Assembly (NCBI GenBank): GCA_963930775.1
Contig: OZ005689.1
Span: forward strand, 20,589,262 to 20,653,261
Origin: Cliona cf. orientalis
Lineage: Eukaryota > Porifera > Demospongiae > Clionaida > Clionaidae
Direction: 5' to 3'
Length of the DNA stretch: 64,000 bases
A program made the translations under genes and the position numbers. Shown piece by piece: positions 4,486 to 51,693 of the stretch. The notes below the pieces were generated by a model. The model was not told the origin of the DNA. It did no database searches and saw only the letters and a list, made by a program, of their open reading frames with translations. Numbering within the stretch: the stretch's first letter is position 1; each line of letters begins with the position of its first letter.

Positions 4486-4985
4486 ATCCAAGGTGACCGC
4501 CCCTTTAATGAATTTCGTTACTTAGCCGCGCGAATTTCGACGTGATTCACACCTGCGATCGACGGTTCTCTCATTCACGAAGGCTGCAAAGACCATGGCA
4601 AGGCTATTTGACGCTGCCCAGGTTGCTGACAGTTTGTCAGACTTTGAAACGGAGGCTGAAGGCGAAGACAGTATGTACAATGAGTCAGAGAGTGATACAG
4701 AGCTTTGCAAGTTACTTGTCAGAAGTAACTGGCAATAGGTAGTGTGGTTTGCCTAGTAGTGGTGGCTAATTTGATATTCATGATGCACTAGTGTACACAA
4801 ACATGACCACGTTCACTGTACTGCAACGCATTTTAATTAGTGGTCTAGACATAGCAAGTGCACTGTGCAGGCCAGGTGGTACCCATAGTGCGCATGTGCA
4901 GGTGCAGATTCAAATTTTGTAAAGCGCGAAATTTGATAACAGCTCGAGTATGACTTCTCGTACAGGAAAGCCATAATCCACTGAT

Positions 4986-5911
4986 TTGAGATGGAGGGCA
5001 GTGTGGCTACATGTATTCAAGGAAATGACCTTTGAGGAGGTGGGAGACTTGCTTTTCATGTCCTCCAGAAGTGTAAGGAGATATGTAAATGCCTTCTATA
5101 CATCTGGCAATGTAGATCCAGCCCAACACAGACATGGTCCACTTCCAATTTTGAATCAGTTTGAGCAGCTAACAGTCCTTCAGTCCTTACTTGATGATCC
5201 AAGCATGTTCTTGGATGAACTACAACAGGAACTAGTTAATATTACTGGCAAACCTGTCCACATATCAACTATCTGCAGAACCATTCATCGTCTGGGAATG
5301 ACTAGACAGAAACTAAGACACATTGCACTACAGCAAAGCCTGGATCAGAGGGCCCTTTTCATGCTTGATATTTCTATGTTTGACCCAGAAATGATAGTGT
5401 GGTTAGATGAGACAGGATCAGATCGGAGAGATGGTGTTAGAGCCTATGGATATGGACTTCGTGGGCTTACACCTGTTAAGCATCAATTGAAGGTATGGGG
5501 CAAACGCATTTCTGCGATTGGAGTCATGACCATGGAAGGAATTGAAGATGTGTTTGTTTACGAAGGCTCAGTAAATGGAGATGTATTCGAGTACTTTGTC
5601 AGAACAACTCTCTTACCCCTTCTCATGCCATACGACGGTCAAAACAAACACTCAGTAGTTGTAATGGACAATGCATCCATTCACCATCTAGAAACAGTGC
5701 AGGATATGATTCTAGGAGTGGGTGCTCTCATTCGTTTCTTACCCCCGTATAGCCCCGACCTAAATCCTATTGAGGAAGTATGAGATACCTCAAAGCAAAT
5801 GACATGTTATACCTAGCAACACTATCACCACGCCTCTTTATAGTTGATGCATTTCAAACTGTGACTCGGGAAGACTGGATTAATTACATTAGACATACTG
5901 GGTATTTGTAA
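4986..5911 (+). pseudogene. IS630/Tc1-type DD34E transposase
   Basis: The N-terminal helix-turn-helix region (EVGDLLFMSSRSVRRYV) recognises the transposon ends in this family. The catalytic core shows VWLDETGSDRR (first Asp), VVVMDNASIHH (second Asp) and YSPDLNPIEE (Glu), with 34 residues between the second Asp and the Glu. Right after NPIEEV the frame meets a TGA; a neighbouring frame continues as RYLKANDMLYLATLS to a stop at 5911, so a small deletion or frameshift breaks the tail. The start is uncertain: the listed ATG is internal-looking and a short upstream exon is possible. Cut-and-paste at TA is expected. The core is certain; activity is doubtful. Confidence 0.88.
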
Positions 5912-7084: not shown

Positions 7085-9899
7085 GATGGATACTGATTAG
7101 AATATCTCAGCACACTCAACTTTCGAAAAACAGGTAGATGAACAGCAGGTCGCTCTGAGCATACACTCAGTCACACAACTTAAAATACCAAGTTAGTACA
7201 GTACTAGCTAAGTACAAACGCGTATTTGCGCGCCTTTTTCATTATTAAGCTTATGTGACACATCCTGTGCAGGTGCAGACCCTATGGCAAGGTGTGGTTT
7301 ACCAGTTTACATAACTACACACTACCTATTTCCTATTCACTCTGACAAGTAACCTGCAAAGTTCTGTAACACCAATAGTAGTGACAATGATGCTAGCCTA
7401 GATGACAGTGATGCTACAGCTAGTGATAGTGACTCCTCTTCAAGTCTTGGAGGACCCTCTGGTGATGATGGGGACAGCTCCAGAGATGATGCTAGCACCA
7501 ATGGCAGGGGCAGGGGCAGGGGCAGAGGCAGAGGCAGAGGCAGAGGCAGAGGACGGGGTAGTGGAAGAGCAGGAGTGAGAAGAGGCAGACGAGGGAGGGC
7601 AGTCACAGGGTCCAGCAGCACCAATCTGTATGTGTGGACAACAGTTGGAGAAGGTACGTACCACCAGAGACCTAATTGTACACATACATGTAGAAGTAAA
7701 ATTGGCACCACCAAGGATAACTTCAAAACTCACATTTACATTGCACACATAAGCACATGCAAGTTACGTATAAATTTTGCTCATTCTACCTGTACATGTA
7801 CTTACATATTCTCCATTTTGCCTATGTATGTACTAAAAATCATTATTTGAGTCTTGTCTTGGGTTCTATTCAGTCTAAAAGTGCATGTCTATACACCTAC
7901 ATTCAAAATGATTAGAGCATAGGTTCACATGTAAGTACATGTATGTACATGCAAAAGTAGAATGAGATAAGAATCACCTAGACTTGCATGCTTGTACATG
8001 TACATGTAGGTACATGTGCATAAATTTGACTAGTCATCAACATACCTGTATAATTCTTTTTATGTAGACAACACTGCACCAGCCGCCCAGCCATTCACAG
8101 AGCAACCAGGGCCCAATGTACCACCATCCTGCCAGACTCCAGAGGACTGCTTCTCCCTCTTTTTTGATGACACCTTGCTCCAGTACCTCGTTGACACCAC
8201 CAACATGTACGCTACAAAGAGGCTCGCTACCATGACCATCTCACGCCGGTCACTATACAGGAACTGGAGGCCTGTGACGGTGGAGGAGATGAAGGGCTTC
8301 ATTGCTGTGGTGCTCAACATGGGGATAGTGCAGCTCACTAACCTCAAGGACTACTGGAGCACAGATGACACCACTAACTTCCCTTTCTTCCGTTCGGTCT
8401 TCTCCAGAGATCGATTCTTTCAGATCTTTGGCATGCTGTATGTGGGAGATCCAGATGGCACCACCAAGCGCAGCAAGATCCAGCCCCTACTTGACCGTCT
8501 CTGTCCAGTGTTTGAGGCCACCTTCACACCCGACAGATCGCAGTCGATGAGAGTGTCATCAACTTCAAAGGTAGAGTCTCCTTTCGCCAGTACCTGAAGG
8601 GAAAACCACACCCCTGGGGAATTAAAGCGTTTGTATTGTCAGATAGCAAGACAGGGTACCTTCAGCGTGTGTGTGTGTACTATGGCAGGGAGACTCAGCT
8701 CATCGACAACGATAACCCTCACACCGTCCGGGTTGTTCAGACGCTGGTTGAGCCGTTCCACAACAAGGGATACGATCTCTATGTGGACCGGTTCTACACG
8801 AGCCCTCTCCTCGCCAGTGAGCTGATGAAGGTTGGCATTACGGTTACAGGCGCAGTGCAATCAAACAGGAGGGGCATGCCGAAGGAGGTGACAGATAAGA
8901 GGAAGAAGGAACCCCGAGGCAATATCCGTGCTGCTCGGTCCGGCAACATTTTGGCTCTCTCCTGGCTGGATAAACGAAAAGTGTTGATGCTTTCAACGAA
9001 GCACAATGCTTCAACAACACAAGTGCGGACAAGGTACACAATTATAAACTCAATCAATGATCATAGGCTTGCTAAACATTACAATACAAAATATCATGTG
9101 TACTTACCTCTCTTCTTTTGTCCAGGCGTGGAGAAATCACAGACAAGCCCACGGTTGTTGCCGACTACAACCAATTCATGTTGGGGGTAGACAAACTGGA
9201 TCAGCTCATGGCTTACTACAGCTTCCTCCACAAGTCGGTGAAGTGGTGGCGCAAGATCTTCTGGCTGTTGGAGGTGATGGTCATCAACTCCTACATAATT
9301 TACAAGGAGTTGGCTAGAAGACGAGGAGAGAGACCAATCACTCACCTGGCTTTTCGGCGAAGGCTGATTGAAAGTCTGTCCGAGTCTATACGCAGTAGTA
9401 CCACCTCTAATGCCAGACCTGGTCCAAGGGCATCCAATAATCTCCAGCACCTCCAACCAGTACGACACTATCCTCAAAAAGGAAGGAAAAGACGTGACTG
9501 TGTAGTCTGCAGTGACAGAGAGAGTGGTCCTAGACATCTCACTCATTATCAGTGTGCTACATGCCCTGATAACCCCGCTCTGTGTCCTAACAGTTGCTTC
9601 CAGACCTACCACACACAGAGGAGTTACTGCTCATAACTCATATCAACGCTCACTCACCCCACCCCTCTAAACACTTTATGACTATCTAGCTAGCTACTTT
9701 ATTTATTTTATTTGTGCTTACCTTTTGTGTCTGTATGCATGCCCCGTCCCAGAGTCACCATCACGAGAGGCTTCTCGCTAATTTACTCCAGCGTTTGGCC
9801 AGTAAAAACTAGTCCACAATAAACGTCCAGCGAGTCAAACTTAAACGAGACGCGTTCAGCTTATCTATAGCTTCACATTAATGTCCAGTATTGCCACAG

Positions 9900-10194
9900 C
9901 TTTTCCCAGAAATTCTCAGAATGCCTTGGATAATCATCTTGGCAACACACTAAGTCCAGAATTTATGCGGAATTCTTGGGATGTGTCTTAGTATCCCAGT
10001 TAGATTGAGCTCCAGATTACTAAGTATCCTGGAATTCTCAGAATGTCCCTATGTTTCCCATTACTACATATAAACATGCCAGGATTCCTCGGCTGTTTCT
10101 TGGTGTCCCATAATATGATACTTGAACCCGGAATCCCTGGGATGTCCCTTGGTGTCCCATATGACAGTGGATTCCTTGAGTCCCGGAATACTAA
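9900..10194 (+). repeat. Left arm of KDZ element, outer degenerate part of 72-bp array
   Basis: About four diverged copies of the 72-bp unit, recognisable from words such as GGGATGTCCCTTGGTGTCCC and CTTGAGTCCCGGAATACT. The array is cut at the TAA of 10192-10194 by the Harbinger element and resumes at 12904. Confidence 0.85.
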
Positions 10195-10344
10195 TACTTT
10201 GTTCACACTTGTCCCAGTTCAACCGTTCCGTTCAGTTCTGTTCCAGAACTGTTCCACAGAACGGTTCTGACATGCGTTCACACTATAGACATATGAACGT
10301 GACTGAGGGGGCGGGGCAGTGGGCGTTACTGTGACTGACTAGCT

Positions 10345-11619
10345 ATGGCGTTGAGGGTAAGAACAGCACTGGTGATGTTTGCGCTATGGCTGCGAGCTGA
10401 TGAAGACAGAAGAGTAGCACAGAGAACTCGCAGACGTCGTTTATTACTCAGAAGACGGCTGGAGAGGCAACGTTTGCTTGTGTTATTGCTATTGGTGCTC
10501 TTTATTTGGAGCCGCACAGCAAGCAGGCCTCGAAGTATTTGGACGAGAACAAGGTAAATAATACTACAGGTACATTAATTTTAGTGTGAGAATTTTGTGC
10601 ACTGTAGGAGTTGTACCTGGTGGAATAGAATCGTGTTGGAGACATTTGATACTCGTGACTGGGTGGAGAACTTTCGTATGAAAAGGGAAACTTTTGATTA
10701 CCTTTGTGATAAACTTCGCCCTTCAATTATCCGGCAAGATACTCAGTTTCGTACAGCGATTAGTGTTGAACAAAGGGTTGCTATCACTGTATGGTGCTTG
10801 GCTACTCCGTGTGAGTACCGTACCGTAGCTCACCTTTTCGGAGTTGCTCGTTCAACCGTCTGTGAAATAGTTCAAGATACATGCCGAGCTATTGTACGTA
10901 TTTTATTAGAAACATACATACGATTCCCAACTGGCGATGCACTCAAGAGGGTTATCGATGGATTTGAGGATAAATGGGGTTATCCCCAGTGTGTTGGCGC
11001 CATTGATGGCTCACATATCCCTATTGCAGCTCCTGAGCTAAACCACACTGACTACTACAACCGAAAGGGGTGGTATTCAATGCTCTTACAAGCAGTTGTG
11101 GATCAGGATTACTTGTTTAGGGACATCTGTGTCGGTTGGGCCGGGAGTGTGCATGATGCAAGGGTGTTCGTAAATTCATTAATCTACAAGAGAATCACAG
11201 AAGATGGTTTGCTTTCTGATGCACAGAGTCGCACACTTGGTGGTAAAGAAGTTCCTGCATGCATAATTGGAGATTCAGCTTACCCAATAAATACATGGTT
11301 AATGAAGCCATTTGCAGATACATCCTCTCTCTCCCCTCAACAAAAGCACTTCAACTATAGGCTATCAAGGGCTCGCACTGTTGTGGAAATTGCGTTTGCA
11401 CGCCTCAAAGCCAGGTGGAGACGGCTTCTAAAAAGAAATGACATGCATACTGAGCATATACCTACAGTGATCTCTGCTTGCTGCATTTTGCATAATTTAT
11501 GTGAAGTGCATGGCGAAAGTTTCAACGATGTTTGGTTGTTAGAAGAGAGTGAATACGAGCAGCCAACAGCTCCATCCCTACCAAGCACTTCATCAGCTAG
11601 GAATGCAGACGATGTATGA
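10345..11619 (+). CDS. Harbinger DDE transposase (406 aa, two exons)
   Basis: Exon 1 (10345-10553) encodes a very basic Arg/Leu-rich leader. A 54-bp intron (GTAAAT...CTGTAG) joins it in phase to exon 2 (10608-11619); total 1,221 nt including the stop. An N-terminal helix-turn-helix-like segment (HLFGVARSTVCEIV) precedes the catalytic core: GAIDGSHIPIAAP (first Asp), WAGSVHDARVF (second Asp) and ARTVVEIAFARLKARWRRL (Glu). CCILHNLC near the end is another family hallmark. The protein acts as the endonuclease and needs the Myb-like partner encoded at 11932-12708 for nuclear import and end recognition, as known for PIF/Harbinger. Intact. Confidence 0.95.
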
Positions 11620-11931
11620 AATGCTCTTGTTGACTACTTGTATACACACTAGTGATACTAGTACATTTTGCTGTACAATTATTGTTGTATGCACTCGTGT
11701 TCATAATGTGATATTGTGTTACATGTTTATACATGCAGTGTCCCGGCCACATGCAGGTCTCTTTCCATGTGATGTGAGAAGTGAATGAGTGTGAGTGAGT
11801 GTATGCACACGAGTACCATGCATTGAAGATCCTGGTTGATAATAATAATTATTGAATAATAACCAATACCATTGTTTATGTAGTCTATAATATCTATGCC
11901 AATACCACAGCAAGAAGCAGTCCTGACGAGT

Positions 11932-12708
11932 TCACTGGTAATTATTATTGTCAGCATCGTCTGCAAATGAATACATGGGGTGATAGTTAAACGACGGCCC
12001 TGGTGGTTGTCGAGTAGAATTGCTATCTTTTGGCTGTCCTTGATTACACAGCAAAGTCATCATCTGCAACTGAAATTCACGACTCTCTCTTTGCCTCTGC
12101 TCTTCCATTTCAAGCATTCTTTCCTCCAGTTTTAAGTAATGCTGCTCACTCTCACTCTGCATCTTCATTACTTTCTCCACCAGTGACTCTATTTTTTCAG
12201 CTTTTTCACTCACTGATCTCTTTCTCTTCTTACCCTTAACTTGTGTCTTGATCTCTATAGGTGTTTCAGATCGGCTTCTCGAGCTCTCACCTTCATCAGG
12301 TTTGGGTTCAGCTATATCACCTGTTGCACTTTCCGCTTCTTCTTCATCTCCTGACTTGTGTCCTGAGCTGTCACTTGCAGCTGCTTCACCTGACTCCACA
12401 ACTACAGGTGGTTGTGTTGCTGGCTTATGGCCCAAAACAGCATCCATTTCTTCAAAATACCTCCAGTCCTTTCTTCCAGTTCCTGTCTTCTTTCTAGTAT
12501 CCTTTATTTTTCTATATTCCAGCTTCAACTTACGAATTTTACTATTGCATTGGTCGGCTGTTTTCTCGTATCCAGCAGCCTCCATTTTACGAGAAATCTT
12601 GTTGAAAACGTCTTTGTTTCGTTTACTCCCTTCGAGCATCGCTTGTATACTATCCTCGCCCCATATTTCAATCAATTTCAACGTTTCTTCTTCGCTCCAG
12701 ACCGCCAT
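11932..12708 (-). CDS. Harbinger Myb/trihelix DNA-binding partner (258 aa)
   Basis: A single uninterrupted frame from ATG at 12708. Residues 1-90 form a Myb/SANT-like trihelix domain: WSEEETLKLIEIW, then NKDVFNKISRKMEAAGYEKT, then CNSKIRKLKLEYRKIKD. An acidic/serine-rich linker (about 95-150) and a basic KGKKRKRS signal follow. A long coiled coil (about 165-225) ends the protein. In PIF/Harbinger elements this partner binds the transposon ends and brings the DDE protein to the nucleus. It lies tail to tail with the transposase gene. The start is supported by the domain beginning at once after the Met. Confidence 0.93.
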   Translation of the reverse strand: MAVWSEEETLKLIEIWGEDSIQAMLEGSKRNKDVFNKISRKMEAAGYEKTADQCNSKIRKLKLEYRKIKDTRKKTGTGRKDWRYFEEMDAVLGHKPATQPPVVVESGEAAASDSSGHKSGDEEEAESATGDIAEPKPDEGESSRSRSETPIEIKTQVKGKKRKRSVSEKAEKIESLVEKVMKMQSESEQHYLKLEERMLEMEEQRQRESREFQLQMMTLLCNQGQPKDSNSTRQPPGPSFNYHPMYSFADDADNNNYQ

Positions 12709-12903
12709 GCCTTCTAGTAGATCGACAACCGCGTGCTATCTGCGCATGCGCTTGCTATCTGTTCCGTTCTAGAACGGCAACGCTAACCGTTCCGTTCTGA
12801 ACGGAACAGATGAGAACGGAACGGAAACCGAAGCGTTCACACTCGATGCGGAACTGTTCTGGAATAGTTTGGAACGGTTCTGATTGCTAGTGTGAACGGA
12901 GTA

Positions 12904-13725
12904 TAAGTATCCTGGGATTCCTGGGATGTCCCTTGGTGTCCCATATGACGGAGGGTACTTTGAGTCCCGGAATACTATGTATCCAGGGATTCCTGGGATG
13001 TCCGTTGGTGTCCCATATGACAGTGGATTCCTTGAGTCCCGGAATACTAAGTATCCCGGGATTCCTGGGAAGTCCCTTGGTGTCCCATATGACGGAGGGT
13101 ATCTTGAGTCCCGGAATACTAAGTATCCCGGGATTCCCGGGAAGTCCCTTGGTGTCCCATATGACGGAGGGTACATTGAGTCCCGGAATACTAAGTATCC
13201 CGGGATTCCCGGGAAGTCCCTTGGTGTCCCATATGACGGAGGGTACCTTGAGTCCCGGAATACTAAGTATCCCGGGATTCCCGGGAAGTCCCTTGGTGTC
13301 CCATATGACGGAGGGTACCTTGAGTCCCGGAATACTAAGTATCCCGGGATTCCCGGGAAGTCCCTTGGTGTCCCATATGACGGAGGGTTCCTTGAGTCCC
13401 GGAATACTATGTATCTCGGGATTCCCGGGATAATCCCTTGGTGTCCTATATGATAGTGGATTCCTTGAGTCCCGGAATACTAAGTATCCCGGGATTCCTG
13501 GGATGTCCCTTGGTGTCCCATATAACGGAGGGTTCCTTGAATACCGGAATACTATAAGTATCCTGGGATTCCTAGGTACCTTGGTGTTCCATATGACAGA
13601 GGATTCATTGAGTCCCGGAATACTAAGTATCCCGGGACTCCTGGAATGTCTCTTGGTGTCCCATATGATGCAGAGTTCCTTGAATACCAGAATACTAAGC
13701 ATCCCGGGATTCCGACTATCTATTA
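12904..13725 (+). repeat. Left arm of KDZ element, inner part of 72-bp array (about 11 units)
   Basis: Units recur every 72 bp (CCCGG of the motif GTCCCGGAATACT falls at 12966, 13038, 13110, 13182). Each unit contains the self-complementary stretch TCCCGGGATTCCCGGGA. Because 72 is a multiple of three, all frames stay open through the array, producing long meaningless ORFs on both strands. Confidence 0.95.
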
Positions 13726-13860
13726 TGTAAAGACTAGTGGTCATAGGATACGATCTGTATCTTGTATGCATAATAATAATTATTATAATTTAAATGTACA
13801 CGCATTTTGTGACAATAACGTAAAGGTACACACATACGATTTCATGCTTAAAATTTACAA

Positions 13861-16800
13861 TTACACTGATAACTTTCTGTTGTGCAGATCACAGAGATAT
13901 AGAATGTAGAACTTAAAGTGGGAATTGTTCATATGCCGCGTTATCCTAGCGTAGTGATAACCATGCGAATGTTTGTTCACAAATCTCAGTATCAACCTGT
14001 ACGGTAATGGAAGCATAATTCTATAGCGTAAAGAGAGTCGAAAAACAATACATTTTCAAGATCACTGAAGTGGTTAGGATCACAATGCCTCTTACACCAT
14101 TCATCTGTGTGGCCCCTGAAGTGCATCTTGTCTACTACAATTGTAGTTTCTGCAATCTTTCTTGCTGTAGGGGTTAGAGAACTCCTACTAGGATTTGTGG
14201 CCAACCTTTTTTAGATGACATCCGTCATCGTAGACAATGAATCCTGTTTTTTAAGTATGTTATACATCAAACAAGTTGCATCTCTTTTATTTAAGACTTA
14301 CTGACATCAGAGAGTGTATTTGAGTTCAAATAAAAAAGGCTGTGTACACTGCCATAAACTTGACTTTTTGCTTCCGCTCGAAAAAGCTCATCAATCAAAG
14401 TAACTGTTCCACACGGCCAAATACCAGCTAAAATACCTAAAATGGTATTGTGCCATCCATTAATAATTTTAATACATAGATAAAAAAATTTACCTGCGGT
14501 CCTATAATGAAGCTTCTCTTTGTCCTTCTCTGTATTACACGCTAATGCTCCTGAATCATCACTTTTGCTATCAAACACTCTGCATAAATAGCATTTGTGT
14601 TCATCTGACAACTATTAATTTTGTTGTGTATTGGCAGAGGAGGTAATTGTTGGTAATTGTCATGCTGTGCCATCATTTCTGTCCCCACTTCACATATTAA
14701 CTACTGATAGTGATCTCTCGAGATCTCCAATTAGATATGTTTGTTAGTTTATATAAAACTTGGCCAGTTGTACTTTAGCGTAGCCAATACGTGGGTCATA
14801 CTGACGATGATTGTATTGTATCTCTACTGGTGTCCTACTAGGATACAATGATTCTTTTTTAGCGAAACTTGGAGGGGGTAGGGAAGGTGGGGAACTTGCA
14901 CTTATGAGCAGTAATTAACTATGGAGTATAATAAGGTAAGAAATGTATTACCATGACTTATGCAAAGGGAGCCTGCATTATAATGGAACTTTTGAGCAAC
15001 TACTAGTACATGCATGTACAAAAGCTTGAGGATCCAACACTTGATCCAAACTAGTAAACTATTTACATTAACTATTGCAGTTAACATACCCTTCATTTTC
15101 TGGTACCACTCGCTGGCAGGATGTACGACCAATGCTGGGCACTGCACTTGAATGTTGATGAGAAACCGTTAAAGTGTGCATTGTCTGGCCCAGTCCAGAT
15201 GAATAAACTTCTTCGGTGGCAAACGATGAGAGGCCCAGTTCGATCACTGAAGGTGGAACATTTTGTTCTGGCTCCCATGTGACCTTACACTCCTCCTTAC
15301 CTAGCCACAGTACCTGAAGTTTATGTTAATAATGTATGCGCATGAGCATCATGATCAAATACGAGAGTATGGGAACCCTCTCCCACTTTAATATAATGGT
15401 GCTTATACCTGCATGGATGATAATAGCAATTGCTTACCTGATAATACTTTCCACTCCTGGTTTGCTTCTCCTGAAGAATGGACTCTATAACTCTGTGCTG
15501 TGTTCCTCTGCTTAGGGCACGAACGGTGCTTTCATTTTCAGTCTTCATTTCTCGAGGCTTGTGCAGGGCGCAAAATGTGCTTGTCTGTATGGGAGTGTTC
15601 ATACACCCTGTCTTGACCATTCCAGGAAGTCCATGGTACTCTACGTATCCAGCTTCTTCTGCTGCACACACAGTGCGGTTATTTTTCTGGTTTCCATCCA
15701 GGACTAGAATTGTACCACAACCCTTAACATTGCAACGATGGCCTATAACATTGTAGATACATGTATAAATTAAATACCATATCCTAAACAGAGAGAAATA
15801 GCAGATTGTAGTGGCCAGTCACTCCAGTGGCAGATACAAGGATTGTATGGATTTCATCAATTCCTAAGGCTAATATTCTAGCAGTAACATTTTTTGATAG
15901 TACCAATGACAGGTTGCATACCGTACTTCTTTTTGCAGAGGATGGAGGCATTTTATCAACAAAGTGCACAAATTAAAATGCTTCAGTTTACATGTATAGC
16001 ACAGGTTCGAATGGGGGAGGGGGTGGGGGGTGCCCCCCCCCCCCCCCAACCAGCAGGGAAGGGGGCCAGTGCCTCAACAGCCAGAGCAATACCTGTACAT
16101 GCTGTAGTAGGTTCTGATCGACTTACTGTTTGTTTCTTCATTACGACGACCAAGAAACTCTGGCCTGACACCATCATTAACGCTGAAGGGGCATGGTTTG
16201 TACCCAAAGTGGGCGTGGTCGCAAAAATTTCGTGCATGCGCACCTACAGTGTACGGCAGTAAGCATTGAAATTACCGAAACTTCACCAATACCAATGGAG
16301 AGCTATTTTGCCAAATTTAAACTTATTTGCTATACGATATCAGTATTTTCAAAAAGCAGTCCTGAAAACTAATCTATCGTATTAACGACACCAAGAGTTT
16401 TTTTAATATGAACAAAATCAAGCTCAAATAAGAGTAGCCACACTCCAGCAATGCTGAAACTAATAATAGCTATTTAAATAAACACGGTATGCATGAAACA
16501 TCCATACAATAGTTGACACGATGCACTGCATATTTCATTGTATATACCTGAGTATTTCTTGTGAAACGCTTGTTGATATATCGGAGTGAATTTGAGAAGA
16601 TCTTTCTGATGGTCAGATGAAAACACAGGTGACTGCTTTATGTCACTTGAATACCAGGAGGTAATACAGAGAACTGCAAATTTGAAGTGTGCTGCCTCAA
16701 GCCGTCTCCTGTCAAGATGTTTTCTTTCCATCCTTTTGGGCTGATCACTGTATAATGAAAAAATAGGTATACTGCGCCATATCCTAGCAATATGGATAAA

Positions 16801-17663
16801 AAAAACATGATCCCAAAACATAAGGCTTATAAGGTCAAGCAGGTGATAATTTTACCCGAAGACTTCTATTACTAGTGCCTATTATAGTCTCGATGCAACT
16901 TGTAAAAAGTAATTAATTTTGCTACATACCTGCTATCATCCATGCTTTTGTTTGTGACATATCCATGTATACTGTTGTATATGTCGGCCCTTTGTTTGTA
17001 GCTGATTTGCCCTATCAAGATCTCTTTGTCTAGACGGCATAACATATCCATTGTGAAAGCTGTTTCACGAGTGGACATAAAGTAACGTAGTGTTGCCCAA
17101 TCCTCATCATATATGGTTTCGCTTAAAGTTCCCATTGTGTAGAATCCATAGTGTTGTTGTAAAGAACACCCTCCACTCCGGCAGTACTTGGTGTAGTGAG
17201 TACCAGGCAGTGTTCCCATGGAATCATTATAGACTGTGATAGTTGATGGACGGTCTGCCCTTACATATAGCTTAGACCCACAGTTGCGACAGCTCTCTTT
17301 GCTTGAGATGAGAACTACACCCAGAGGTATATCTGTGCCCATCCTTACCATTCCAATTATATCATCCACAAGCTGGAAATCAGTAGCTAAGGCATCCTTA
17401 TTAAGCACTTCAACATTCTCAATAAACTGACGAGCTTCTTCAATGGTAAAGCTGTTCCTGTGTTCCCTTTTCATCAAGCTGAAGGAGGCCAAATGGTTCC
17501 AGAAGAAAGGCATACTCCTTGGGTAAAAGGTAGCAGCAAATTCAGCCCTCCTAAGCACAGAAGGATCCTTGATGTGTGTACTGAGCTTGGACAACATAGC
17601 TAGCTCTTGAGGACAGCTGCATGTGATCAGGCTGTGGACCATGTGTTCACACTTAATTAACAC
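13861..17663 (-). pseudogene. KDZ transposase gene, about nine exons, 3' end frameshifted
   Basis: First exon 17663-16930 holds a CxC5-like cluster (CRNCGSKLYVRADRP ... HYTKYCRSGGCSLQQHYG) and ILIGQISYKQRADIYN. Exon 16747-16548 has LDRRRLEAAHFKFAVL. Exon about 15741-15437 has a CxC6-like cluster with GCGTILVLDGNQKNNRTVC, where DGN is the likely first catalytic Asp. Exon about 15314-15089 looks chromodomain-like (VLWLGKEECKVTWEPEQNV). Then GILAGIWPCGTVTLIDELF, IVYDDGCHLKK (second Asp), DKMHFRGHTDEWCKRHCDP, and in the last exon (13996-13861) VDTEICEQTFAWLS (Glu) and YARITRHMNNSHF. Two frameshifts are visible, after DGCHLKK at an A run and after FAWLS. Borders mostly follow GT-AG. The architecture follows known animal KDZ proteins. 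Confidence 0.82.
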
Positions 17664-17738
17664 TTATGTCATTCACTATTACATCATACCCTTAACAGAG
17701 CACATGGTCCAGCTAGCTAGCTAACTTCACCACTGATC
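17664..17738. promoter_or_regulatory. Shared divergent promoter region of the KDZ element
   Basis: Only 75 bp separate the first Met codon of the minus-strand transposase from that of the plus-strand ATPase. The interval contains AGCTAGCTAGCTAAC but no clear TATA box. Co-expression of the two genes is inferred from geometry only; untranslated leaders could extend into either gene. Confidence 0.4.
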
Positions 17739-20700
17739 ATGGCTTCTCCAGGCAGGCTTAACTCTAAGTCCAAAATGTGGGAACTCAAGGAGAGGCTTCA
17801 AAAATGCTGGGAGCTTCCCTTGAACTGGAATCTGTATCCCCAACACTTAACCAAGGTAAATAATAATGATATGTATGATTTTTATGAATATTTATTAGGT
17901 ACAGTAAAAGTTCTAATTACAGCGCCACTCTAATGTAAGCGCCATTTGGCATTGGACAGTATTATTGTTGTTCTAATTGTAGCGCCAAAGTACAGTCAGA
18001 GATACAAAAACTGGCGCCTTGTGTAATTTTTTAACGTTCTAATCGGAGCGCCAAGCGCGGTTCTGAATTATTTTTTTGGCGCTGTAATTAGAACTTTTAC
18101 GGTAATAGTGAAAGACTAACCGTAATAGCTTGATATTTTGAAGCTGATAGGGCATATTATTAAATACTATATCAACACACCATGTATCTATGGCATAATT
18201 TTATACTAGTTTAACCCACAAATCAATACTATTTTTTGATGTATAGTGTAGTAGCTATCATGCATGGCGCCACATAATATTATGGTAACATACGCACGGA
18301 TTTTAAGCGCACCTAGGAATTAAGCACATGTTTAGAAAGAAGCACATACTTTCTTCCTGGTTTGACTACTAGGAAACAGGCGTACTAGCCATCTAGACAG
18401 CCTGGAATTACTGTATCAAGCAGCTCTTGTCTTTTTTCTGGTCGCTCTTTCTGGTTCTAGATGGGTTTCTTGATTTTGATCCCATATGCATACAAAATCT
18501 GTGTCCTTGACGAGCCTTACCCACCTGTATACGTGGGGTATGACCATTCAGCATTAACTTATAAGCACATTTAAAAGTATATAGTTTCTTGCTCATTTTG
18601 CAATAGGCACATGCACTTAACAACCTGCATCTGTGATAGCTATTTCATTGTCTAAGTTGAATTATTACTGTGGCAGAGACATACCTTAAGGACACTTCTG
18701 TTTGCGGGTACTAAATTTAGTGAAAAAATGGAATGTTAATTTTAAAAACTTACTAAAATGTACGGTGGCCGAGAGGGGCCGCGCATTCTACTTTCATAAC
18801 TTCCAAAAATGGTCGTTTCCTACAATGGTTATTTCCAATTATGAGTATTTCTCATTACCGAAATTTCTCGATACGGATTTTTCTATCTAATAGTGGAAAA
18901 TCATAAAAACGCTCAGCGCTGCGCCAGCAGGCAATAATTGAAAGAGGCGGGGCTGTTTGCGCGGATCGGATTCGCTAGCCTCCTATTGCGCCGATAGCCA
19001 CCGTACATACGCACATTCTACTTTCAATTTAAAAAATTCCAAACATGGTCATTTTCTATTGTAGTTATTGCCGATTATGAGCATTTCTCATTACCAAAAA
19101 ATGTGCTCAGCGCTGCGCCCAGCAAGAAGAGGCGGGGCTGTCTTGCAGATAGGGTTCGAGACGTGCGCAAACCTTCTCTTGCGCCGTCATAATTATTATT
19201 CTGGTATCCGAGCCGTATTAGCAAGTCTTGCTTCAAGTAACACCGAGATTTCTTGTTTAATACACCGGTTTTGTTTTTCTATGGTGGCAGAGAAGGGATG
19301 CGCATTCTACTTTCAAAACATCCAGTAGAGGCCATTTCCCATCGTGGTTGTTTCCGATTGTGAGTATTTCTCATTACTAAAATTTTTTGACACGGATTTT
19401 TCTCATCATGCTATGAAACCGCTCAGGTATCTCATGCATGCGCAGCAAATTAAATTAACAGGAACAATCGCACGTGCGTATACGCGATGGATTCAAAGGT
19501 CATAGAAACTGCATGCGACCATATTAAAATTAGGAAATATTGATAGCACGAAATCAGCTTTACTGGAAGCGCCTTATGTAGTTATGGCTTGCGAATGAGA
19601 CCCGGGCACAAGAAAGATCCATGGCGTAGCTGCGTGGAGGATAGCCGTGCGTCTAGAACAAGAGAGCCCCGCCTCTTCTTGCTGGGCGCAGCGCCGAGGG
19701 CTTTCATGTCAAGATGAGAAAAACCTGTATCGAGAAATTTCGGTATTGAGAAATACTTATAATCGGAAATAATCATGGTAGGAAACGACCGTTTTGGAAG
19801 TTATGAAAGTAGAATGCGCGGCCCTTCTCGGCCACCGTAAAAATGAGTACCTGCTAAATGCACTATTTCCAAAATCTGCTAAAATTTGTACCCACAATAA
19901 TTATAGTCCTAAGGTATTGGTATGTCGAGGGGTCCAATTTTCACAATATTAAGCCAATATCTGAAAAATTAGACTAGCAAAATCGACACAATTGTACAGT
20001 GTATAGTGGGCATGGTCATGCACATCCAAACTGTGAAAATTTTGAAAACTGGCTTTCCGCAAAAATTGGACCCCATGAAAATAATTTCCCACTATTAACG
20101 TATTTTTTACCTTTTAGGGCTGCGAGCAGATAGGAAGAGCTCTTGACATGCCACGTGATGCCATTCTGTGTGGGCTTTTGCTGCTAGTGAGCTTCTTCAT
20201 GGCCCATAGTGCTATTACTGTGCCGAAAACAGTATGGGTTGAACCATCCATTCTATGGATTGTTATAGCCATGCCACCAGGAAGTGGCAAGACTCCGCTA
20301 TTTACTTTCTTGACTGGCATTCTGAGGAAGGTCAGAGATAAGCTGAAGCTGACGAGATCACACCCCCCTTGGCTTTTGGATGAAGCAAGTTTTGAAAAGA
20401 TGGGGGAGCTTATGGCCAACAATCACTCAAAACTCCTTGCTATGTATGACGAACTATCCACTTTCTTAGCCCAGATGAATGTGTACAGGGGGAAGGGTCT
20501 ATGTGATTCACATGATCTTTCCACATTTCTCTCTTTATACACCGGCAAATCATGGACTCGTGCAACTGGTAAATAATAATTGTTGCATGGCAAATGGTGT
20601 TAATATAATAGCACATGTATACTACTAGTACCAACATGTTTTTATTGGAAAAATCATCAGGACTTAGGTACATAGCCACACTCTCATATGTTCAGTTTGA

Positions 20701-23128
20701 CTTTCAATTACTTTTGTTGAGCCCCTTGGGAGCCTGAGATAATTTTATCATATAAAACACCCCCGAGTGTACATGACTATCATGCAATTATGTATGCACC
20801 TGAATAGACCAAGACTTAATCAATATTTTTCTATGTAGTGTCTGGAGATGCAAATTTTGAGATGGAGAGAACAGCATTAGTTGTAGGAGGCTTTACCCAG
20901 CCAGTTGTAGCAAAAGCACTAATCGAGATGTCATCCAGTATTGAGAAGGGTTTGACGCAGCGTTTCTTATGGTTGTCTCCTAAGCCTTCATATTCGAAGT
21001 ATTTCTCCTTGGATATGATTGATGAGGATTTCACCTCATATAATTATTGGTAAGTAATCACCAATATGCAATATGTCCATATTCAAATGGGTACACACAT
21101 GTACGCAGTTTCATACAGGGTTTTTCATGGGGGGGGGGGGGGCAATGTGTCAGGAAAATAATTATTTTTAATATCTCTGAGATTGCATTTCAGTGTATTG
21201 ACCAAAATTAATGTTGATTTTTAAGCAATAATAAGCAGTGTGACTGGTGAAATAGTCACAAGTGTTGTTCAGGGCGAGCCTGCATGAGTGAGCCCTGAAT
21301 ACACGAGAAACTGAAAGCGGTATCTATTATATATATAATGTATATTTTAGTGCATGATCTTATACAGTGACCACTCAACGTTGACGTGTAAATTTGTGTG
21401 ATTATTGTATTTTAGTTGATCTACTGGCTTCGTTGTGGAGGGCAGATGCCAAGAATGTGTGGATGTTGACAATTCCAGATGAATGTAAAGAATTCCAAGC
21501 TTATTTTGATGATATCCAAGAGAAAATCAGCCGAATATCTGTCCTTGATGATTTGCTGGCAGGTATTAACATAAAATACTGAAAGTTTCGTGTAACAATT
21601 ATGTTGGCTCTTTCAGTGTGTGCCATATACTGTATACGTTGAAATTTTCACTCCATACAAATTTCACCAAGCCCAGCTACCCAGAAACTTTTGATGAAAT
21701 AAATCTTTGCCAGTGCAGTAACAATGCAGTAAAAATTACCACACCCTCTATACAATCATTAGCACAGAAACAAACTTAGTGTGTTAATAGCACTTATTGA
21801 GGAATTGTATATTTTCTAATAGGAATGCTCAGCAAATCCAAAGGTCAGGTGCTGCGAGTTGCAGCTGTTTTACATGTGCTTTTTGTGGACCCATCTACAC
21901 TATCAACAATTCCATCTCTAATTTCTGTCGAAGCAATCACTGCTGCTCAAAACTTCGTTGATACCTGCTGCCAGCATGCTGCTTTCATCGCTGGTCGTGG
22001 TTTAGTTAATGAGGAGATTCAGCATCTTATTTCAGGTCCTTTATCTTATATATTTATACCACTAGTCTTAACGTAGGTACCCTTGTAATTTGTACGATAT
22101 TTCAGTTCCAACCAGGTTTATCAAATCACATACAACTGGATTGTCTCTTATTTTGCTAATATATAATTAATTATTATCACTACTAGGTAACACGGTGTCT
22201 ACTCCTCTATCAAAAAGTGGAAGCGTCGCTGCTTATTGTCTGTTGCTTCCTGGGAAAGTGCTTAATCTAAGCGCTCTTTTGCAAGCAAAAAAATTTCGTG
22301 GCAAGGGTAATAAGGAGGGGGCTGTGGCTGCATTGGAAGAACTGCATAAGGCTGGTTTGGGAAAATTAATTAGTGCAGACAGCCGAAGAGGAGCATCTTC
22401 AGTAAGTATACAATTTAATCTCACTATCATACTGAGTTAATGACACATGATAGTTAACTACAGATGTTCCATTTCCAGTATATATTTGATGGTTGTCATT
22501 ATGCCGTACATAACTATATCACCTTATGGCTGCAAGTACAAATGCTATAGAATCTAGGTAGCAGTTACCATGAGTTACTATAGCAACATAATGTCCATTT
22601 ATGGGATAGTTAAAGGTGATACAGGGTCATTAGTATGTTAGCTGCTACATAGCTTTACAGGGGAAGTATCAAAGTTTAAGCCTCTCCATGACGGGAACTA
22701 GAGATCTATTGATGCATATCTTATAATTATTGCAGGTATATACGTTTGTCAAGGAATTGGTCACTGAGGATAATATGGAGACCCTTGCTGATAAACTAGG
22801 TAGTTATGGTGTAAGTATCCCACAGTACCAGCGAGCACTACAACGAGAAATAGCCACCTCCTCGTAAGTACTATATATAATTGCATACAAGTATACAGAT
22901 ATTGTCCAAAATAACAACCACCTTAATCTTTGTAGAGTTTCTCTTTCAACGACACTGCCAAGGTCACCCCTTAAGAGGAATAGTGCTAATGGCCTACACA
23001 TTCATGGACACACCCCGCCAAAACATCCCAGACTACCTGGAGATATTAATGGGAGTAGTGCTAAAGGGCTATTTACAGATCAAGAGACCCACACAAATGG
23101 TGACACACCTGAAGATTGTGACGACTGA
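17739..23128 (+). CDS. DUF3987-like P-loop ATPase of the KDZ element (about 557 aa)
   Basis: Eight exons with GT-AG borders: 17739-17855, 20118-20568, 20839-21049, 21416-21562, 21823-22035, 22187-22401, 22736-22863, 22936-23128. Exon 2 has Walker A (AMPPGSGKTPLF) and a Walker B-like MYDELSTFL; exon 3 has QRFLWLSPKP; exon 5 has GMLSKSKGQVLRVAAVLHVL, resembling the C-terminal part of DUF3987. The tail is polar, Pro/Asn/Gly-rich. All junction phases agree except exon 3/4, which is one base out, so either that border is wrong or a small indel exists. In bacteria DUF3987 occurs in phage/plasmid primase-helicase contexts, so a DNA-dependent ATPase acting with the transposase is plausible but inferred. 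Intron 1 (2.26 kb) holds two MITEs. Confidence 0.78.
17902..18102. mobile_element. Small TA-flanked MITE in intron 1 of the ATPase gene
   Basis: TA on both sides; left end CAGTAAAAGTTCTAATTACA, right end its near-complement. GGCGC words recur inside. A Tc1/mariner-derived non-autonomous element is likely. Confidence 0.85.
18763..19837. mobile_element. TA-flanked MITE with about 130-bp TIRs, composite
   Basis: Left end CGGTGGCCGAGAGGGGCCGC and right end GGCCCTTCTCGGCCACCG are inverted copies, and similarity continues for about 130 bp. Two further partial copies of the same end sequence lie inside (about 19007-19090 and 19281-19400), suggesting nested or rearranged copies of one family. Confidence 0.8.
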
Positions 23129-23504
23129 TAACACTCACACCAATTAATGTAGGTGAATTATTCAAAGAAACTGCAGAATTCTTTCAATAGCTACACTGTG
23201 ATTCAATGGCAACTACACTTAACCAACGCTGCTAAATAACTAGTGAATCAACTCCCATGATTATCCATAACTACAACATGTATTATAGTATTATTCAACC
23301 ATAAAATTACACCTATGTATTTCACTACTGATTCAGTGGCATTAATTGACTAGTCTGGTTTAAATTTCAAATACATATTATAGTCAAAGCCATGTGTATA
23401 GTGTCATGTTCTCGGAAAATTATAGAGGATAATGTGCATCATCAAAAGAAGTGCAATAGGTAAATTAATGTACTACAATGGTATAATTCGGTGTACTGTA
23501 ATAT

Positions 23505-24893
23505 TTGAAGTACCAAGGGACACACCAGTAATCTCAGCAATAGTTTTCTGGGGATGGAATCACCTATTCCGGGACTTAGCTTCTTATGTGACACCAAGGG
23601 ACATCCCAGGAATCCCGGGATACCTAGTATTCTGGAACTCAAGGAATCCACTGTCATATGGGACACCAAGGGACATCCCGGGAATCCCGGGATACTTAGT
23701 ATTCCGGGACTCAAGGAATCCACTGTCATATGGGACACCAAGGGACATCCCAGGAATCCCGGGATACTTAGTATTCCGGGACTCAAGGTTCCCTCAGTCA
23801 TATGGGACACCAAGGGACTTCCCGGGAATCCCGGGATACTTAGTATTCCGGGACTCAAGGAATCCACTGTCATATGGGACACCAAGGGATTATCCTGGGA
23901 ATCCCGGGATACATAGTATTCCGGGACTCAAGGAATCCACTGTCATATGGGACACCAAGGGACATCCCGGGAATCCCGGGATACTTAGTATTCCGGGACT
24001 CAAGGTACCCTCAGTCATATGGGACACCAAGGGACTTCCCGGGAATCCCGGGATACTTAGTATTCCGGGACTCAAGGAATCCACTGTCATATGGGACACC
24101 AAGGGACATCCCAGGAATCCCGGGATACTTAGTATTCCGGGACTCGAGGTACCCTCAGTCATATGGGACACCAAGGGACTTCCCGGGAATCCCGGGATAC
24201 TTAGTATTCCGGGACTCAAGGAATCCACTGTCATATGGGACACCAAGGGATTATCCCGGGAATCCCGGGGTACTTAGTATTCCGGGACTCAAGGAATCCA
24301 CTGTCATATGGGACACCAAGGGATTATCCCGGGAATCCTGAGATACATAGTATTCCAGGACTCAAGGTACCCTCCGTCATATGGGACACCAAGGGACTTC
24401 CCGGGAATCCCGGGATACTTAGTATTCCGGGACTCAAGGAATCCACTGTCATATGGGACACCAAGGGATTATCCTGGGAATCCCGGGATACATAGTATTC
24501 CGGGACTCGAGGAATCCACTGACATATGGGACACTAAGGGATTATCCCTGGAGTCCCAGGATACTTAGTATTCCGTGACTCAAGGAATTCACTGTCATAT
24601 GGGATCTCGTATGGGACACAAACAGACATCCCAGGAGTCCCAGGATACTTAGTATTCCGGGACTCAAGGAACCCTTTGTCGTATGGGACACCAAGGGACA
24701 TCCCAGGAGTCCCAGGATACTTAGTATTCCGGGACTCAAGGAATCCACTGTCATATGGGACATCAAGGGATATACCAGGGATCCCGGGATACTTAGTGTT
24801 CCAGGATTCAAGGAAGCCTTCGTCATATGGGACACCAAGAGACATCCCAGGAGTCCTGGGATACTTAGTATTCCGGGACTCAATGGTGGGTGT
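23505..24893 (-). repeat. Right arm of KDZ element, 72-bp array (about 19 units), inverted
   Basis: The same 72-bp unit as at 12904-13725 but in the opposite orientation. Units vary between ACTGTCATATGG and CCCTCAGTCATATGG types. Together with the left array it forms a terminal inverted repeat over 1 kb long. Confidence 0.95.
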
Positions 24894-25195
24894 GGGAAGC
24901 ATAGGGGCCTAGCTACATTAAAGGACTCCTAAGTAAATCCTAGGACTATCTGTGGCAGTACTGGACATCACTCTAGCTTCACGGACTCGTGAGGCTTTAG
25001 CGTTGCCATGGGTAGCTTCCCGATCTCATTGGTCGAGTCGCTAGCCTAAGGCAAGTCGATCTTTCCCTCTCCTTCCATATCCTTCCATCTCCAAAGCACG
25101 CGGTTGAAGGAAGCCGTCTGGGGGAAATGATGTCACGTTCCGCGTGACGTCCGGGCGCAATATTTAAATATTTTTTCGCGTCCGCTAAGTGTTAA

Positions 25196-29135: not shown

Positions 29136-32100
29136 AGAATGAGTGAGCAGCAGGAGAGAGGGCACATTGCAGACGAGGAAGCTGCGAAATTACCAGCCCT
29201 TGCTGCAGAAATTCACAGGGAAAGATGATGTTGAGAGCTATCTCGACATGTTCGAGTGAGTTGCCACCCAGCAGGAGTGGCCTAAGGAGACATGGGCCAT
29301 GGGCCACTTAGCTAGCGGGCTTACTCTCAGGCGATGCTCTATACAACTACTTAGCGCTTGCACCGCTAGTGCAAAAGATTACAACTCGGTGAAGGCAGCC
29401 ATCCTCAAGCGGTATCATGTGAATGCTCTAGACAGCTACTCAGCGCTTGCACCGGCAAGTGCGAAAGATTACAACTCGGTGAAGGCAGCCATCCTCAAGC
29501 GGTATGATGTGAATGCTGATACATATCAGCAGAAATTCAGGTTGGAGACAAGGAAGCGAACTGAGTCGTACCACAATTTTGGAGAACGACTCACTGATCT
29601 TCTGGGATGCTGGGAGAGCGCTGCTGAAGGGACTGAGCTGAGAGAGCTCGTTCTTCTGGAGCAATTTTTGCAGGCACTGCTGAAAGACATGGCTGTTCGA
29701 GTGAGAGAGGGGAAGCCTAAGACCATTAAGGAGGCTTCCAAGATGGCGGATAACTATGAGCTGGCTTGTACGGCAGCCAGGGGTGGAGCTGTGCAGCGGC
29801 AGCAGCAAGGACTAGACCAGACTTCAAATGCTGGTAGTTTGGCATCCGCGGCAAATATGAAGCCTTAAAGTCCACCACCCAGAGCAGGGCTGGGAATCCA
29901 GCGCAGCAAGACGAAATCCAAGGGAGACATTCTCTGCTGGGAGTGTGGAAGGTATGGCCATATTGATATTTCTTTCCCAACAGGAAGACACAAGGTAGTG
30001 AGTGCAAGGGCTGATAGTCAACCAGTACTGATGGCTACTCAACATCTGGGCCATCCACTGGCATTAAGGAAAGGTCAACTGGATGGCAAAGATGTTCAGA
30101 TTCTCCTTGATACTGATAGTGAGGTGTCCATTGCAAGAGCAAGTCTGGTGGACCCAGACAAATGGAGTCAATAAACCGTAAGAGTGCAGTGCGTACACGG
30201 TGATGAGATACCTTACCCCTCAGCCATAGTCAACCTGAATTTGGTTGGCTGGGAGAGAAGCATCAAGGTGGCTCTGATCCCAAATGTACCAGTGGATGTT
30301 GTGCTGAGACATGATGACCCCCTACTGTGACACAGAAGAGCCTCATGGTCACTACCAGGGCCTGGAAGCGACGATAGTTGCAAGAGGAACAGATGAAGAC
30401 GCTTGGTGAGGTGGAAGCGAACCCTATAGGAGCTGCTTTGTCTGTAGGTCAGCAGCCAGGCTTGGAGGGTTTATTTCCATCAGAGATGGAAAGCCGGGAG
30501 GGAAACGGTCCATCCACGGCTAGAGTACCTATGAGTGAATACCTCCATCGGCAGGAACCCAACCCTCCACAGACCTTGGTTGACGACAAAATGGCAGTGG
30601 CCCACAGAGGTTCACAAGCACACCTTTCAGATGAGGTTCTGCAAGCAACACCCCTATAGCTGAGAGACTGGCAACAACCCTACAGAAGGTCAGAGAGCTG
30701 GCATCATCACAGAAATGGGATGCGGGCCAAGGAAGGGCAACATTACTGTGGCGACTAATCTACAGAAGATGGTCACCCACGCTTGGAGAAAACCAGGATG
30801 TGTTGTCCTTTGATCAGCTGGTTCTGCCACAGCAGTGCCGACAACTGGTCCTCAACATTGCTCACGATGTACCAATGGCTGGTCACCTTGGCATCGACAA
30901 GACAAAGGGAAGAATCCTGAAATGCTATTACTGGCCAGGAGTCTTCAAGCAGGTAGCAAATTACTGCAAGACCTGTGAGGTCTGCCAGAAAAGTCAGAGG
31001 AGAAGATACCTTTTCTAAGCAGAGATGATCTCCATGCCACTGATTGATAAGCCTTTCCAGCGTATTGCCATGGACGTGGTTGGACCTCTCCCCAGAAACA
31101 GGTCAGGTAACAAGTATATTTTGACAATATGTGACTATGCAACAAGATATCATGAAGCCATTCCTCTCCCAAGCACAGAGGCAAGCAGGATTGCAAAGGA
31201 GCTGGTGACTGGGATGGGTATCTCCCATATTTGCTCTTTGCATACAATACAGGGGAGCCCCCAGGAATCGACTGGATTTCTCCATTCAAGCTCTTGTATG
31301 GAAGATGAGTGCGGGGTCCTCTGGATGTTCTCAGAGAGATGTGGGCGGAGGAGGAGTCTGAGAAGACCACTGAAGTCACCCACTTGATTCCTATGAGAGA
31401 ACGCCTGGAAGAAATGGCATGCTTGGTGAAGGCCAACCTTCAAAAAGCTCAGCGGAGACAGAAGAGAGCATATGATGAAAAAGTGACAGTGCAGTCACTT
31501 GAGGTGGGAGATGAAGTAATTGTCCTACCTACCAGGCTGAATAAGCTCCAGCTACAATGGTCAGGACCGTACAAGATCACCAAGAGGGTCACTCCTGTCG
31601 ACTACGAAGTGCAGAGACCAGGCTAAAGACAGGAGAGGAAAGTGTATCACATTAACCTTCTAAAGAAATGGCACCATGATGAGTGTCATATCACTGCTAG
31701 CACTTGGCACACAGGACACTGACTGCCATGGTGATGACGAGCTGGAGGAAGATTATCTACTGGAGATGAGCTCTCAGCAGGAGCTACCAACGGGAGCAAC
31801 CACTCACCTCACCATAGACCAAGCATTGGAAATAGAGAAGCTACTGCAGGAGTCCCCAGGGGTCACTGGCACCACTCTTGGTCGCACAATGGTTACGGAG
31901 CACACTGTGAATGTCGGTGACGCTACGCTATGCCCATCAAACAGCATCCCTACTGAATCCCACTTGCTATGAGAGAAGTAGTAAAGAAGGAGATTGATAA
32001 GATGTTGGAGCTAGGAGCAATCCAGCCTCTGGGCTTCACCAGTCGTTCTGGTTGAGAAAAAGGATGGTGAGGTCCGCTTTTGTGTGGACTACCGCAAGCT

Positions 32101-32807
32101 AAATCAGGTGGCAAGATTCGACGCCTACCCAACACCCAGAGTCGAAGAAGCTTTGGAGAGAGTAGGGCCAGCCACGTTCATCTCCACGCTCGATCTTGCT
32201 CGGGGCTACTGGCAAGTGCCAATGGCAGAGGAATCCAAGGAGAAAACCGCTTTTACTACACCTTATGGGTTATTTGATGTTGATGCCTTTTGGCCTCCAC
32301 AATGCCCCAGCAACATTCCAGAGACTCATGAATAGGGTGCTCCAGGGATGCCAAAGCTTTGCACAGGCCTACATCGATGATATTGTAGTCTATAGTAGGA
32401 CCTGGGAAGAGCACCTTCAACACCTGCGTAAGGTGTTCAACTGCTTATTGCAAGCAGGGCTAACACTCAAGCTACCTAAGTGCCAGTTTGGCCTAACCAA
32501 AGTCCACAATCTTGGCCACATTATTGGGAATGGTGAGCTGCTGCCGGATCCACAGAAGCTTGAGGCAGTGAAAGGTTTTAGAATACCGGAAACAAAATCC
32601 GAAGTGAACTCTTTCATCGGCCTCACCAGCTATTACCGCAAATTTGTCGCAGACTTCGCAACAATTGCCACCAACCTACTCAAGAAAAGGCAGCCAGAGC
32701 GAGTATTATGGACACAAGAGTGTGAACACGCATTCCAAAACCTGAAGACCAAGCTGATAAAGCCACCTATCCTGAAAGTTCCTGAGGTGTACAAGCAGTT
32801 CAGTGTC
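29136..32807 (+). mobile_element. Ty3/gypsy LTR retrotransposon fossil (Gmr1-like), main part
   Basis: A broken element with no recognisable LTR in the window. Parts in order: gag (about 29137-29868), protease region (about 30005-30330), integrase with zinc-binding H2C2 head and C-terminal domain (about 30800-31630), then reverse transcriptase (about 31900-32807, with the YIDDIVVYS box). Integrase upstream of RT is the Gmr1 order. RNase H lies beyond a 12-kb insertion at 44899. Roughly ten or more breaks; old enough to have received a large DNA transposon. The left end abuts the truncated MITE at 29135. Confidence 0.85.
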
Positions 32808-35486: not shown

Positions 35487-35729
35487 GGTACCATTTAATT
35501 GCGTGGGCGTGAGCGTCAGGAATGGCTAATTCAATTAGCGAATCGTGAAGGGGCGTGGCCGAAGAGGCCATACGAGTGCTTTTGGTCGAAGGTGGGCGTG
35601 TCCAGAATCGGCCAGGGATGATTATGCGCGTGTAATTAACGACCGGAAGTGGCCCCTGAAGAAAAGGCCGGTAATTGCCCACATCAAAGCAAGATCAAAG
35701 CATTCTTTCTTAACTATTAACCGCAACGA

Positions 35730-35763
<34 letters not shown>

Positions 35764-51595: not shown

Positions 51596-51693
51596 AATGT
51601 GGCTTGTACTTGCACCATGCATTGTAGCGAGATCAAAATTGCCATCACAGATTGATGTACAGTGCTAACTCAAATAGCAACAATTGAAAAAAG

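Follow-up and report, generated by a model that had tools for sequence, protein, structure and literature searches.

KDZ (Kyakuja-Dileera-Zisupton) transposons can be very large: in brown algae, KDZ elements are up to 30.3 kb long, and the giant transposons described there contain nested insertions, often have a broken transposase and carry additional genes, mostly of unknown function (PMC12477816). Target-site duplications of 8 bp are described for Zisupton (PMC12730594) and KDZ1 (PMC12810828), and no target duplication was detected for the Zisupton elements of nematodes (PMC9297572). DUF3987 proteins are familiar mainly from the plasmids and phages of bacteria. For them, Kazlauskas et al. 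(2018) predict a helicase family for mobile-element replication, because DUF3987 replaces known helicases beside primases (PMC5862659), and DUF3987 together with DUF5906 serves to mark primases in phage satellites (PMC10803314). Here we analyzed 64,000 nucleotides of the sponge Cliona cf. orientalis (GenBank assembly GCA_963930775.1, contig OZ005689.1, forward strand positions 20,589,262–20,653,261; hereafter, the window), in which positions 9876–24973 are a single DNA transposon of KDZ type, a partly damaged copy that encloses two genes, one for a KDZ transposase and one for a DUF3987 ATPase. This delimitation is well supported by the ends, the target duplication, the inverted arrays and the family matches. 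Regarding the function of the second gene, we lean towards a two-gene transposon in which the DUF3987 protein, presumably a helicase-type ATPase, would be a true component acting on element DNA.

The Cliona element resembles the described KDZ systems in several respects. It has the KDZ domain and, like the nematode Zisupton elements, a multi-exon transposase (PMC9297572); terminal inverted repeats (TIRs) and an 8-bp duplication are also found in fungal KDZ elements (PMC12730594, PMC12810828); and with the brown-algal KDZ elements it shares a length of >10 kb, nested unrelated elements, a broken transposase and an additional gene (PMC12477816). In contrast, a DUF3987 second gene, a chromodomain in the transposase and arrays of 72-bp units with palindromes are unmentioned in the parts of the KDZ literature covered. 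The fungal TET/JBP transposons (KDZ, hAT, Harbinger, Helitron, and others) include KDZ elements in which the transposase gene has an enzyme gene as its neighbour (PMC12730594), although that enzyme modifies bases, whereas the Cliona element has a putative DNA-motor ATPase. The giant element Sola1-1_Ec32, with its ParB/methyltransferase gene, likewise has an accessory gene of prokaryotic type that lies on the other strand than its transposase gene (PMC12477816), but it belongs to another superfamily and its accessory function is different. A first-pass annotation of the window, made from the sequence alone, had suggested a new module combination for a eukaryotic transposon. This applies to the DUF3987 partner but not to the presence of an accessory gene as such, because additional KDZ genes are already known from fungi and brown algae (PMC12477816, PMC12730594). 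No KDZ-DUF3987 pair was described in the literature searched, a scope that did not extend to Iyer et al. 2014, Bohne et al. 2012 and Repbase. The main text of PMC12730594 contains neither DUF3987 nor an ATPase, and the literature that combines DUF3987 with 'transposon' concerned bacteria or phages only, judged by titles and the first part of abstracts.

Based on a sequence comparison of the flanks, the element is bordered by an 8-bp target-site duplication, TAGCTTCA, or by 9 identical bases when the adjoining C is counted (TAGCTTCAC; 9868–9876 on the left and 24974–24982 on the right, both on the + strand). A 19-bp TIR starts 5 bases inside the 8-bp duplication at both ends (left: ATGTCCAGTATTGCCACAG, 9881–9899, + strand, with the spacer CATTA outside; right: 24950–24968, − strand, with the spacer CACTC outside), and 18 of its 19 positions match. 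Thus, the 8–9 bp duplication and the 19-bp inverted ends with one mismatch, both proposed in the first-pass annotation, were borne out. When the two ends were compared inward from the duplication, 20 of 25 bases agreed. Allowing up to three mismatches, ATGTCCAGTAYTGCCACAG matched only twice in the window (9881–9899 on the + strand and 24950–24968 on the − strand; 0.03 expected). In 25 dinucleotide shuffles, a mean of 0.32 inverted 19-mer pairs of such quality was counted per window, none with a flanking 8-bp repeat; the same count gave 6334 pairs in the real window, of which 595 lie outside the arrays described below and the majority within them. Many array pairs among those listed likewise have 8-bp repeats at their flanks, a consequence of the repetitive arrays. 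The ends and duplication of the KDZ-type element exceed chance. Among the listed pairs outside the arrays, at least one (33103–33121 and 44584–44602) is also flanked by an 8-mer, the palindromic TATGCATA; this inverted 19-mer pair at 33.1/44.6 kb is probably a piece of a longer inverted repeat.

Close to each end, on its inner side, there is a tandem array of 72-bp units. The two arrays are in opposite orientation, enclose both genes and occur nowhere else in the window. The left array (− strand) was severed by a nested Harbinger transposon into an outer piece (9940–10191), degenerate by eye, and an inner piece (12897–13713, or from 12907 if counted from the Harbinger flank) with about 11 copies and 10 palindromes. 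The right array (23585–24883, + strand), inverted relative to the left, has about 18 copies and 18 palindromes, and 500-nt arms of the two arrays are 92% complementary. Most units contain the 25-bp near-palindrome TCCCGGGATACTTAGTATTCCGGGA, in which 22 of 25 bases equal its own reverse complement. With up to four mismatches, this palindrome was found 28 times in the window, 10 times in the left array, 18 times in the right array and nowhere else. Its conservation inside the 72-bp unit was 0.966 versus 0.836 and 0.877, ranking third among 72 circular windows. These values give a hint that the palindrome is conserved beyond the rest of the unit, and no stronger wording is appropriate because the units were picked by the palindrome and some flanks were shifted by one base. 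When a single 72-nt unit was folded as single-stranded DNA, the hairpin had a z-score of −2.19. The mirror-image layout resembles that of transposon end-binding sites, which suggests that the palindromes are candidate sites for an element-encoded protein. These mirror-image arrays and their palindromes had been overlooked in the earlier annotation, as had the Harbinger transposon nested in the left one.

The nested Harbinger (10192–12906 including its TAA duplication at 10192 and 12904; element proper 10195–12903, 2709 bp) has 15-bp ends (TACTYYGTTCACACT) and two convergent genes, a DDE_Tnp_4 transposase open reading frame (ORF; 10585–11619, + strand; Pfam 1.7e-35) and a Myb/SANT ORF (11932–12735, − strand; Pfam 2.3e-23). 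It landed within a 72-bp unit, in the palindromic part, and its flanks, when joined, restore the middle of such a regular unit; therefore, the KDZ-type element is older than the Harbinger insertion. After subtraction of the Harbinger, the KDZ-type element is 12,386 bp (~12.4 kb) long. Another inverted-repeat element lies in intron 1 of the ATPase gene (18751–19849), with 58-nt and 79-nt arms that are ~90% complementary and with more internal copies, and the same intron contains a short fold-back (17900–18104; 28-nt arms, 96% complementary) that is perhaps a miniature inverted-repeat transposable element.

The KDZ transposase gene occupies 13861–17642 on the − strand, with exons at 17642–16930, 16747–16548, 15742–15438, 15313–15090, 14579–14494, 14436–14302, 14243–14052, and 13996–13861 (last two borders by eye). 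We checked splice phase at 13 GT-AG junctions over both genes, 12 of which were in phase; these include the first six junctions of the transposase (6/6 in phase), and its last junction (14052/13996) was read by eye. The predicted protein, queried as joined exons with an X at two frameshifts, matched the Pfam KDZ domain (PF18758) with 43.8 bits (3.2e-11), and its pieces did so with 48.6 bits (1.1e-12), compared to a cut-off of 26.6, in agreement with the family assigned previously. The DGN, YDDGCH and CEQTF motifs reported with that assignment are also present (as LDGN, VYDDGCH, and CEQTF), each in a separate exon, and are candidates for the DDE catalytic triad. The reported CxC5/CxC6 clusters were recovered in part. 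A CxC5-like cysteine cluster is visible in the first exon (16930–17642, − strand), although it remained under the Pfam cut-off (E-values 1.2e-4 and, for the joined protein, 5e-4; 22.7 and 20.7 bits versus 26.9), and CxC6 had no match in Pfam scans of the element ORFs, the joined transposase or its pieces.

Two further features of the transposase, a chromodomain and the two frameshifts, had escaped the first-pass annotation. The two exons that lie within 15090–15742 (− strand) encode LDGN and a chromodomain spanning the exon junction (Pfam Chromo: 1.3e-5 and 25.4 bits in the joined protein, cut-off 25.1; 1.6e-6 in the piece scan). In a PDB sequence search, 44 of 45 weak matches to the transposase were across residues 378–436, the chromodomain region, the best being SUV39H1 (E-value 0.018). 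Chromodomains usually have an aromatic residue at the position where SUV39H1 has a tyrosine, and the transposase has a lysine there, making methyl-lysine binding by this domain doubtful. The frameshifts are located in the last two exons, after YDDGCHLKK and after CEQTFAWLS, and adding back the out-of-frame segments raised the KDZ profile match from none to 32.5 and then to 48.6 bits. A short intron after YDDGCHLKK was rejected in favour of a frameshift, because the KDZ match was lost without the segment and reached 32.5 bits with it. The frameshifts may stem from mutation or from sequencing error, and an intact transposase can probably not be made from the examined copy.

The DUF3987 ATPase gene (17739–23128, + strand) has eight exons (17739–17855, 20118–20568, 20839–21049, 21416–21562, 21823–22035, 22187–22401, 22736–22863, and 22936–23128), and six of its seven junctions are in phase. 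The exception, 21049/21416, which was not noticed in the earlier annotation, may be a frameshift or conceal a small unseen exon. The joined query (557 residues, including one X) matched Pfam DUF3987 (PF13148) with an E-value of 1e-36 (127.4 bits, cut-off 27), confirming the DUF3987-like body reported in the first-pass annotation. The exon pieces covered profile positions 2–68, 188–242 and 312–361 of 364, and the better of two stretches in the joined protein covered 123–359. The joined ATPase also matched PHROG 2373, a 'DNA helicase' family (3.7e-17), and none of the NCBIfam models. The ATPase was aligned with three proteins from plasmids and one from a phage (22–23% identity), and its residues K97, E151, Q210 and R231 were invariant in all five sequences; K97 is presumably the Walker A lysine, so that the Walker A motif noted earlier is intact, and we take E151 to be the acidic residue of the Walker B region. 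A PDB sequence search gave chance-level matches only (two for the ATPase core and two for the profile).

Homologs of the ATPase were found by tblastn in 7 of 72,556 plasmid records (best E-value 8e-10; six annotated as DUF3987 and one as hypothetical) and in 1 of 50,697 phage records (7e-4), and there was no match of the KDZ core in the phage records. Gene neighbourhoods were inspected for four of these eight matches. On a Sulfitobacter plasmid, the DUF3987 gene is directly behind a PriCT-2 gene, and on a Parabacteroides plasmid, it precedes a BT4734/BF3469-family gene. The homolog from Geminocystis is one long DUF3987 protein, whose gene is preceded by a hypothetical gene and followed by one of the ImmA/IrrE family, and the phage homolog is annotated as DNA primase/helicase. 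Three plasmid/phage DUF3987 queries yielded seven loci among viral contigs, all via the Streptococcus phage query. The sponge ATPase has the same core and motifs as the DUF3987 proteins found in plasmids, prophages and phage satellites, and the standalone form is also present on the Sulfitobacter plasmid; here, however, the gene is spliced, diverged to the identity level given above and paired with a transposase, with no primase partner seen.

Pairs of a P-loop ATPase and a DDE transposase are standard in bacteria, and the Cliona element also combines a P-loop ATPase with a DDE-type transposase. The ATPase could accordingly be read as a regulator of transposition that acts in target choice or transposase activation like MuB or TnsC, and not as a helicase. 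We consider this quite unlikely, since its relatives are DUF3987 proteins from plasmids, a protein annotated as primase/helicase in a phage and a DNA helicase family in PHROG, and no MuB or TnsC family was matched in the Pfam, NCBIfam and PHROG scans.

As previously proposed, the transposase and ATPase genes are divergent and multi-exonic, which the checked splice junctions uphold. The gene spacing had to be corrected from 75 bp: the start codons (17642 and 17739) are 96 bp apart, and the region between them (17643–17738) lies upstream of both genes. This part of the genome is dense in transposons (Harbinger, Tc1, and Gypsy by scan; piggyBac-like by eye), and nesting is demonstrated for the Harbinger. 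Both observations would fit two independent mobile elements, with a DUF3987 element beside the KDZ transposase by chance. However, the same inverted arrays and TIRs enclose both genes, and no inverted ends of its own were found around the ATPase in the stretches compared (17631–17745 versus 23121–23600), where the best match (11/15) was at the shuffled level (11–14 reached in 100 shuffles). A separate nested ATPase element is thus unsupported by these comparisons, and a chance neighbourhood of two elements appears highly improbable. The ATPase shares its ends and arrays with the transposase, and its exons are open except at the one junction. This position, the largely open exons in which the motifs are preserved and the lack of own ends in the compared stretches make a working role of the ATPase in transposition, as a partner of the KDZ transposase, plausible.

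The ATPase gene may also be passenger cargo that was picked up by a KDZ element and moves along without any part in transposition. Such cargo has precedents, given that many giant transposon families of Ectocarpus have additional genes, mostly of unknown function, as well as nested insertions (PMC12477816), and that fungal KDZ elements include some with TET/JBP genes (PMC12730594); moreover, only one copy of the Cliona element was seen. On the other hand, the head-to-head start codons suggest co-expression, the long intron-bearing ATPase gene keeps its motifs intact, and DUF3987 is linked elsewhere to the replication of mobile-element DNA. On balance, we regard the passenger explanation as possible but rather doubtful.

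If the ATPase is instead a true component, transposition may proceed as follows. The DDE-type KDZ transposase would recognize the ends, i.e., the TIRs and the arrays of 25-bp palindromes, and would mobilize the element by a cut-and-paste reaction with a stagger of 8 bp, as suggested by the target duplication. Its chromodomain may tether the transposase to chromatin and could steer insertion. Acting jointly with the transposase and assuming helicase activity, the ATPase would most likely unwind or remodel DNA at the element ends during transposition; alternatively, it could drive replication of the element after excision, carried out by host enzymes. For this, it might form a ring, bind the arrays and contact the transposase. 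A bolder version, which we hold to be unlikely, is that a KDZ lineage acquired a replicative helicase from a phage or plasmid that would be loaded at the palindromic subterminal arrays, copying and pasting the element, in which case a DDE transposon would supply part of its own replication machinery.

Several observations weigh against the ATPase as a true component. A single copy was examined, and because its transposase is frameshifted twice, selection on the gene pair cannot be argued from it; the ATPase junction 21049/21416 also breaks the frame as modelled. No primase or polymerase gene was seen among the element ORFs. The literature treats helicase activity of DUF3987 as a prediction, and the predicted fold of a phage DUF3987 relative has a mean pLDDT (predicted local distance difference test) of 42. 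Queries with sequences from the window found no relative, let alone one with both genes, in viral and prokaryotic contig collections, a result that says little about eukaryotes because these collections consist of viruses and prokaryotes. Within the window, tblastn with both joined proteins returned the genes themselves and one chance-level match (E-value 0.75), showing no second copy of either gene, and tRNA and Rfam scans gave no matches.

The general view is that eukaryotic cut-and-paste elements rely on host enzymes for everything but cutting and joining. If the ATPase is a true component of replicative-helicase type, some giant KDZ elements would encode some of the machinery that handles their DNA, which would make the movement or multiplication of such long elements easier to understand. 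It would also suggest that a gene of prokaryotic mobile elements was transferred into a eukaryotic element. The uncharacterised DUF3987 family would gain a testable eukaryotic mobile setting, in which a single element combines a transposase and an ATPase with 28 candidate binding sites.

Other mobile elements surround the KDZ-type element. To its left are a Tc1/mariner-type transposase ORF (4977–5780; DDE_3 1.2e-27) and long ORFs that by eye resemble a piggyBac transposase (8034–9636). To its right, pieces of a Gypsy-like retroelement (29260–33083) contain a reverse transcriptase (RVT_1 9.8e-20 at 32166–32891) preceded by integrase-like ORFs (by eye). Cysteine-rich ORFs followed by a weak match to a Ulp1/C48 protease (0.02, under the cut-off) at 55225–58680 are perhaps another large DNA transposon. 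A protein kinase gene fragment is present at 51377–51652 (Pkinase 3e-7, just under the cut-off), and two ORFs ~1.1 kb apart (34476–35353 and 35720–36418), near-identical by eye, are likely the product of a recent direct duplication.

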